Shown here piece after piece: positions 53,260 through 54,435 of a stretch of DNA of 64,000 nucleotides (position 1 is the first letter of the stretch; the number at the start of each line of letters is the position of its first letter). A model generated the notes under the pieces. It did not search any database, was not told the DNA's origin, and was given only the letters and a program-made list of their open reading frames with translations. The DNA lies in the NCBI GenBank assembly GCA_006738865.1, contig AP019701.1, positions 1,608,001 through 1,672,000 of the forward strand, given 5' to 3'. This stretch comes from Allostella sp. ATCC 35155 (GTDB lineage: Bacteria; Pseudomonadota; Alphaproteobacteria; ATCC43930; Allostellaceae). Made by a program: the position numbers and the translations under genes.

Positions 53260-53649
53260 CTAGTCCACCTTGATCGGCGGGATGCCGGCTCCGGTCTTCT
53301 CGGCCGGCCCGGCGGCGCGGCAGTTCTGGTAGGGGCCGCCCGGCAGGTTCTCCACCATGGCGTCCTCGCCGGACAGCGTCAGCGTGACGGCTCCGTTGGT
53401 GAACTGCCCTTCGCCGGCCGCGGCTTGCCTGGGCTGTTCCTTGCCGTCCTCGCCGGCGTCGGGTCGCGACAGGATCAGGCGATTGCGCCCGCTGTCGATG
53501 ACGACGGTGGGATCCTTCGGGCGCACGGTCACCGCGAAGGCGCGCCCGAGGGCGCATTGGTAGACCGTCGTTTCCGACGGCACCGGGCCGCTCGATCCGC
53601 AGGCGGCGAGCGGAAGGGCGAGCATGACGATGGGGACAGCGCGGCGCAT
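53260..53649 (-). CDS. MliC-like lipoprotein, putative C-type lysozyme inhibitor, 129 aa
   Basis: A lipoprotein: a basic MRRAVP start, a hydrophobic core and a lipobox LAAC (cysteine 17). The mature part has the MliC/PliC pattern: YQC near the start, FAVTV, a single-strand GEDAMVENLPGG and a second conserved C (YQNC) that would pair with the first. MliC proteins bind C-type lysozyme in the outer membrane or periplasm and protect peptidoglycan. The family call is by pattern; a search would confirm it. The gene converges on modA with an 11 bp gap. Confidence 0.65.
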   Translation of the reverse strand: MRRAVPIVMLALPLAACGSSGPVPSETTVYQCALGRAFAVTVRPKDPTVVIDSGRNRLILSRPDAGEDGKEQPRQAAAGEGQFTNGAVTLTLSGEDAMVENLPGGPYQNCRAAGPAEKTGAGIPPIKVD

Positions 53650-53705: not shown

Positions 53706-53801
53706 TCAGTGCAGTGCGCCGGCGGCGTAGAGTGCGGCCACCACGGCGACCGTGACCGCGAGGCCCCGGGCGACGGCGTCGATGAGATCGTGCATCAGCA
53801 T
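53706..53801 (-). CDS. Tiny single-helix membrane protein, 31 aa
   Basis: A 31-codon frame starting ATG (or a second in-frame ATG two codons later), with a polar HDLIDAVARG start and one hydrophobic helix (LAVTVAVVAALYAAGALH). It lies 56 bp before the lipoprotein gene start on the same strand. No family is recognised; tiny single-helix proteins of this kind are common and unstudied. Coding is not proven because the frame is short. Confidence 0.4.
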   Translation of the reverse strand: MLMHDLIDAVARGLAVTVAVVAALYAAGALH

Positions 53802-53992
53802 GGCCCCGACTGTGGCGCCCGCCGGTTACGGTTCGACGGTCGGTTCGGTGACGATCACGGAACGGTCATGCCGGCCTCACCGTGGAGTGAGCGGGCGTGA
53901 TTCGCCGCGTCGGGCGGCGGCGCCTACCTTCTGGTCATCGAACGGGGCGGCGGGGATGGACCGATCGCCCAAGGAAATTCCAGGAGGTTCCC

Positions 53993-54283
53993 ATGATCCG
54001 CATCATCGCTTCGGCCGCAATCGCCGGTCTCGTTTCCTTCGCCGCCTCTGCCTCACCCCTGTCGCTGGACGGCGGCAAGTTCGGCGCCAACCAGGACCAG
54101 GGCAAGTACGGCGCGCTGGTCGACGAGGGCAAGTTCGGCGCCAACCAGGAGGACGGCAAGTACGGCCGCAACCAGGACGAGGGCAAGTATGGCCGCAACC
54201 TCGAGGACGGCAAGTTCGGCGCCAACCTCGACGAAGGCAAGTACGGCCAGTCGGTCGACGGCGACCAGAAGCTCGGCCGCTAG
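53993..54283 (+). CDS. Exported nonapeptide-repeat protein, 96 aa
   Basis: A signal peptide (residues 1-20, ending AASASP) is followed by seven tandem 9-residue repeats (residues 28-90) of the form G-K-F/Y-G-x-N/L-x-D/E-x, and a short DQKLGR tail. The repeats vary in the fifth to ninth positions and carry net negative charge. An AGGAGG site lies 5 nt before the ATG and a terminator-like hairpin follows the stop. I do not know a characterised family. The regular Gly-Lys-aromatic-Gly step suggests an extended or beta-rich secreted polymer, or a surface or metal-binding protein. Confidence 0.8.
   Translation: MIRIIASAAIAGLVSFAASASPLSLDGGKFGANQDQGKYGALVDEGKFGANQEDGKYGRNQDEGKYGRNLEDGKFGANLDEGKYGQSVDGDQKLGR
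54074..54262 (+). repeat. Seven tandem 27 bp coding repeats
   Basis: Each unit encodes one nonapeptide beginning GKFG or GKYG. The repeats begin at residue 28 and end at residue 90 of the exported protein. The codons are not identical between units, so they are diverged rather than freshly duplicated. Confidence 0.85.
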
Positions 54284-54322
54284 CGCGGCTCGCGAGCCGC
54301 ACACACGCAACGGGTTCTGACA

Positions 54323-54354
54323 AAGGGGCCGTGGGGGCAACTCCGCGGCCCCTT
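54323..54354 (+). terminator. Hairpin after the nonapeptide-repeat gene
   Basis: A 9 bp stem (AAGGGGCCG and its complement) with a 14 nt loop, 40 bp beyond the stop. No long U run follows. Confidence 0.55.
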
Positions 54355-54435
54355 CGCGCGTCTTGGGCCTTCCCGCGCCGCGCTCGGGGGCGCAAGATCG
54401 CGGCTTCCCGCCGCGACCCGACCCCGGAGCTTTCC

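Follow-up and report, generated by a model that had tools for sequence, protein, structure and literature searches.

What is a 96-residue protein that carries seven acidic nine-residue units behind a signal-like N-terminus, and of what use would it be to the cell that encodes it? The gene lies in the window, the whole 64,000-nucleotide stretch of Stella DNA that was analyzed, and the features of the gene and its surroundings are as follows.

53260-53649, minus strand: gene for a 129-aa lipoprotein-like protein with a signal ending LAAC, upstream of the window gene; no Pfam match.
53853-53890, plus strand: upstream control region, with three TCAC/TCAT elements 11 bp apart (GATCACGGAAC GGTCATGCCGG CCTCACC) and then TCACCGTGGAGTGA, invariant or nearly so in 11/11 subfamily-A promoters from three genomes.
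53901-53930, plus strand: putative promoter core, TTCGCC - 18 bp - TACCTT.
53982-53987, plus strand: ribosome-binding site AGGAGG, 5 bases before the ATG; AGGAG is kept in 11/11 A copies.
53993-54283, plus strand: gene for the 96-aa nonapeptide-repeat protein, predicted to be exported (subfamily A, locus A1).
53993-54052, plus strand: putative Sec signal peptide MIRIIASAAIAGLVSFAASA, judged by eye.
54074-54262, plus strand: seven 27-bp / 9-aa units GK[FY]GxNxD[ED], from the sequence, TRF, and the spacing.
54323-54354, plus strand: terminator-like hairpin with a 14-bp stem and a short T tail, from an RNA fold of 54284-54370.

The reading frame is confirmed as real. It runs for 96 codons from the ATG at 53993 to a stop at 54281-54283, and the units of the encoded protein start at residues 28, 37, 46, 55, 64, 73, and 82 and are followed by a short tail. 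TRF places a 27-bp array at 54074-54247, and the protein has 30/67 period-9 identities, a count that stayed at or below 19 when the residues were shuffled 100,000 times. The sequence and the shuffle test bear out an earlier note on this DNA, which had described the 96-residue frame, the AGGAGG site, and the seven nine-residue repeats. The signal peptide that it proposed corresponds to a signal-like N-terminus, recognized by eye from a basic start and a hydrophobic core; both are kept in the three subfamilies A, B, and C despite differing sequences, and in relatives this part ends, again by eye, in ASAS, AVAS, or LAAAG. The note had also staked its reading on conservation of the frame in relatives, and the frame is kept in 24 homologous genes, in which consecutive units are spaced by exactly 9 residues in 137/137 steps. 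Its authors knew of no characterized family of this form, and we found none above noise for the window protein or other members in Pfam, NCBIfam, PHROGs, or the Protein Data Bank (PDB), the last yielding no relatives at all. The sequence evidence supports a repeat protein that is genuine and falls in no family described so far.

Beyond what the note had recognized, the gene belongs to a multicopy family that in these searches is seen only in Stella and that evolves in concert. This genome has six copies, with identities to the query of 100, 100, 97, 57, 56, and 56%, and three other Stella genomes gave 7-9 matches each, including one split gene and contig-end fragments. The signal-like parts differ between subfamily A (the window type), B, and C, and the unit is common to all three. 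We did not detect any member in 39 other genomes of the order, and a profile search of 384 genomes from the class and 397 from the phylum, both of them samples, as is everything on which the absence outside Stella is based, found none except one low-complexity match; this match, in another member of the class (G053), was dismissed as an ASIDASRVG repeat. Plasmid and phage collections gave no match, and a profile search of a viral-contig collection gave no relative, on which grounds a plasmid, phage, or viral origin was rejected. In the draft fourth Stella genome (L058, L059, L060, and L061), several contigs terminate within the gene, with identical sequence at paired ends, the outcome that near-identical copies would lead one to expect; because contigs break inside the repeat genes, the copy number of that genome is uncountable. 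A separate observation is that a two-unit DNA pattern has one exact match in each of 20 viral stretches (L098-L117).

The distribution, 4/4 Stella genomes searched against 0/39 other genomes of the order and none in the class and phylum samples, brings to mind the flat six-pronged Stella cell, whose shape has an unknown mechanism (PMC6687932). The family could be a genus-specific exported repeat polymer that acts as a periplasmic or surface scaffold, builds or stiffens the star, and owes its uniformity and abundance to gene conversion, and its probable export and its multiple, homogenized copies would fit. The argument for a role in shape comes only from the restriction to one genus, which is a single phylogenetic event with which any genus-specific gene would correlate alike, and no link to a cell-wall gene is seen in the window neighborhood. 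We regard such a role as quite improbable.

The repeat unit itself is strict. Lys occupies position 2 in all 158 units, Gly is found at positions 1 and 4 in 157 each, position 3 is aromatic (F/Y) in 134, the Asn of the pattern is present in 116 and its Asp in 137, and position 8 is acidic (Asp or Glu) in 148. In every unit of the window gene, GK[FY]G is encoded by GGC AAG TWY GGC, so that among the conserved residues only the Tyr codon varies, and the codon pairs that differ between units are nonsynonymous in 80 cases and synonymous in 8. The repeats have thus not drifted at the DNA level, as the earlier note had supposed; its conclusion that the amino acid pattern is under selection loses that argument and stands instead on the strict 9-residue spacing and on comparison between species. 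In subfamily A, dS between species is ~0.30-0.54 and dN 0.16-0.24, giving dN/dS of ~0.4-0.6, and the ratio is 0.13-0.54 when subfamily B genes are paired across genomes and 0.36-0.66 in subfamily C, all approximate estimates because gene conversion mixes them. The ratios indicate that moderate purifying selection acts between species. Equivalent units, 4-8 per gene, in multicopy genes might also be expected of an exported polyprotein that is cut between units into near-identical nonapeptides serving as a signal, a metallophore, or something similar. We consider this very improbable, since the variable positions differ from unit to unit, no dibasic or double-glycine processing site lies between units, and no obvious processing enzyme is found among the neighboring genes examined.

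Concerted evolution of the family is evident when loci are compared across genomes. Locus A1, in the window, is syntenic with L042 (Stella humosa) and L048 (Stella vacuolata), and A2, A3, B1, B2, and C1 are likewise syntenic in three genomes. A tree of the subfamily A promoter plus coding sequence nevertheless groups the copies by genome, with support of 1.000 and 0.997, and a tree constrained to follow the loci was rejected (AU p=8.5e-39). Promoter identity is 92% between A copies of the same genome and 78% both for orthologues and for nonorthologous copies of other genomes; for the coding sequence the values are 97, 79, and 79%. Distal upstream DNA shows the opposite trend, with 43% identity within a genome, 68% between orthologues, and 42% between nonorthologues of other genomes. 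The subfamily B coding sequence repeats the pattern (92% within a genome versus 83%). Paralogues are closer than syntenic orthologues and flanks follow the locus: the family evolves in concert, most simply by gene conversion. The near-identical A2 and A3 lie in inverted orientation (G000:C1:4657655 (+) and 4677249 (-); L118) and bracket a segment of ~20 kb that is inverted here relative to S. humosa and S. vacuolata, with collinear outer flanks. This is what crossing-over between the two inverted copies would produce, and it lends independent support to recombination between copies.

S. humosa has an extra copy, A4, whose site is unoccupied in both other complete genomes, and the homologous unit of ~430-450 bp sits between unrelated flanks, as would be the case if a promoter-plus-gene unit were spreading and being homogenized with little benefit to the cell. 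Against such a unit, the species have at least three A, two B, and one C locus in syntenic positions, the genes are under purifying selection, and no terminal repeats or transposase were seen. We judge this explanation improbable.

The homogenized unit includes a promoter of ~130 bp common to the A copies, made up of the 11-bp-spaced TCAC/TCAT triplet, TCACCGYGGAGTGA, GTGATTCGCC, and TACCTTCTGGTCAT. The genome contains just three instances each of the TCAY-11-bp array and TCACCGYGGAGTGA, all of them ahead of A copies, and the idea of a regulon shared with other genes was rejected because both are found only there. The 11-bp spacing had also suggested a PhoB-type phosphate regulon, which is unsupported, the three candidate phosphate-binding-protein genes having no such upstream array. 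The putative core does not match the sigma-70 consensus; GATT...TACCTT is kept at similar spacing in A and B. Because the promoters of B and C diverge farther upstream, expression conditions probably differ between the subfamilies. Downstream, the fold of 54284-54370 has an energy of -48.1 kcal/mol (z -3.57), and given this strong hairpin, which a consensus scan did not list, the window gene is probably a one-gene transcript. Its downstream neighbor encodes a serine beta-lactamase-like hydrolase, and a solute-binding protein gene lies on the upstream side. Rfam gave no match. A 31-aa frame, MLMHDLIDAVARGLAVTVAVVAALYAAGALH, at 53706-53801 on the minus strand is likely a single-pass small membrane protein and is conserved in S. 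humosa and S. vacuolata, where the same locus carries it (L042:8507-8599, 64%, and L048:7755-7663, 58%, respectively).

The mature part of the window protein is acidic (pI 4.8); in the 24 genes the repeat regions contain 18-24% Gly, have GRAVY values of -1.06 to -1.76, fall on the disordered side by charge-hydropathy in every case, and have the composition by which hydrophilins are defined, a hydrophilicity index > 1 and Gly > 6% (PMC7448490). AlphaFold2 predicted no confident fold for the window protein with or without the signal part (pLDDT 50-52, pTM 0.10), a failure that, with an alignment of five rows, is weak evidence of disorder. Any of the roles that the earlier note had put forward, a repeat fold, a polymer, or mineral or metal binding, may apply. 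From an acidic, Gly-rich, hydrophilic chain that is predicted to be disordered and to which AlphaFold2 gives no fold, we favor an exported, disordered polymer made in bulk for the envelope or against water stress, with a probability of about 0.4. Such proteins would leave the cytoplasm by the Sec pathway and remain largely unfolded as hydrated polyampholytes, in which acidic pairs, together with aromatic and Lys "stickers" at even intervals, could make many weak contacts. Made in bulk, they might make up or fill a soft, water-rich layer at the surface of the cell or within its periplasm, giving hydrophilin-like protection, an envelope matrix, or both. The near-identity of copies within a species suggests that the cell needs much of the protein, and homogenization may be favored because dose and uniformity matter. 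Some points count against this reading: the codon adaptation of the window copy is just modestly above the window median (0.77 versus 0.70, in a genome whose codon bias is near saturation), a merely disordered protectant has no obvious need for so exact a spacing, and gene conversion may continue even when dose is not under selection.

The main rival to a bulk polymer is an ion-dependent repeat fold akin to the RTX beta-roll, unfolded when made and folding or assembling outside the cell as Ca2+ or another cation binds regularly spaced Asn, Asp, or Glu residues with Gly turns. The period of 9 is the same, Gly at positions 1 and 4 and the polar position 6 coincide with the RTX consensus GGxGxDxUx (PMC6473919), and the Stella units are acidic as well as strictly spaced; moreover, disorder is a property of apo-RTX domains too (PMC6473919), and the failed fold prediction is therefore compatible with such a fold. 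The units depart from the consensus, however, with the invariant Lys at position 2, where RTX needs Gly, and the acidic position 8, where it needs an aliphatic core residue. The RTX profile (PF00353) did not match the window protein, searched to E = 10, or any of 12 members, searched to E = 1, and an N-terminus of the signal-like kind suggests secretion by Sec, not by a type I system. We consider an RTX-like fold unlikely, with a better chance than the other alternatives.

Whether or not the bulk polymer is the right reading, concerted evolution, reported as long-lasting only rarely among protein genes of prokaryotes (PMC6053082), acts here on a short, predicted exported repeat protein together with its promoter, and it is seen in both subfamilies that have several loci. 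The family, which these searches confine to one star-shaped genus, gives work on shape a short, concrete list of genes. If it does self-assemble or protect, the GK[FY]GxNxDE unit would offer work on materials or desiccation a new sequence polymer that is exported.

Several known systems resemble parts of this one. Collagen-like proteins (PF01391; SclA/SclB) are likewise Gly-rich and repetitive and give weak matches, but the score of 15.7 bits lies under the curated cut-off of 27.2, and Gly falls at positions 1 and 4 of the unit only, not at every third position. RTX nonapeptide repeats share the period, the two Gly positions, a polar position 6 (Asn in Stella), acidity, and a predicted location outside the cell; they differ at positions 2 and 8 and in secretion. 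As in tufA/tufB and other concertedly evolving bacterial genes (PMC6053082), within-genome paralogues are closer than orthologues at synonymous and nonsynonymous sites, whereas the Stella family encodes a short, genus-restricted, predicted exported repeat protein that is homogenized with its promoter. Hydrophilins and bacterial LEA-like proteins are similarly small and predicted to be disordered, and the exported Zmo0994 of Zymomonas mobilis, likened here by its description, also has a signal peptide (PMC7448490); what sets the Stella family apart from them is an exact 9-residue GK[FY]G unit carried by multicopy genes that evolve in concert.
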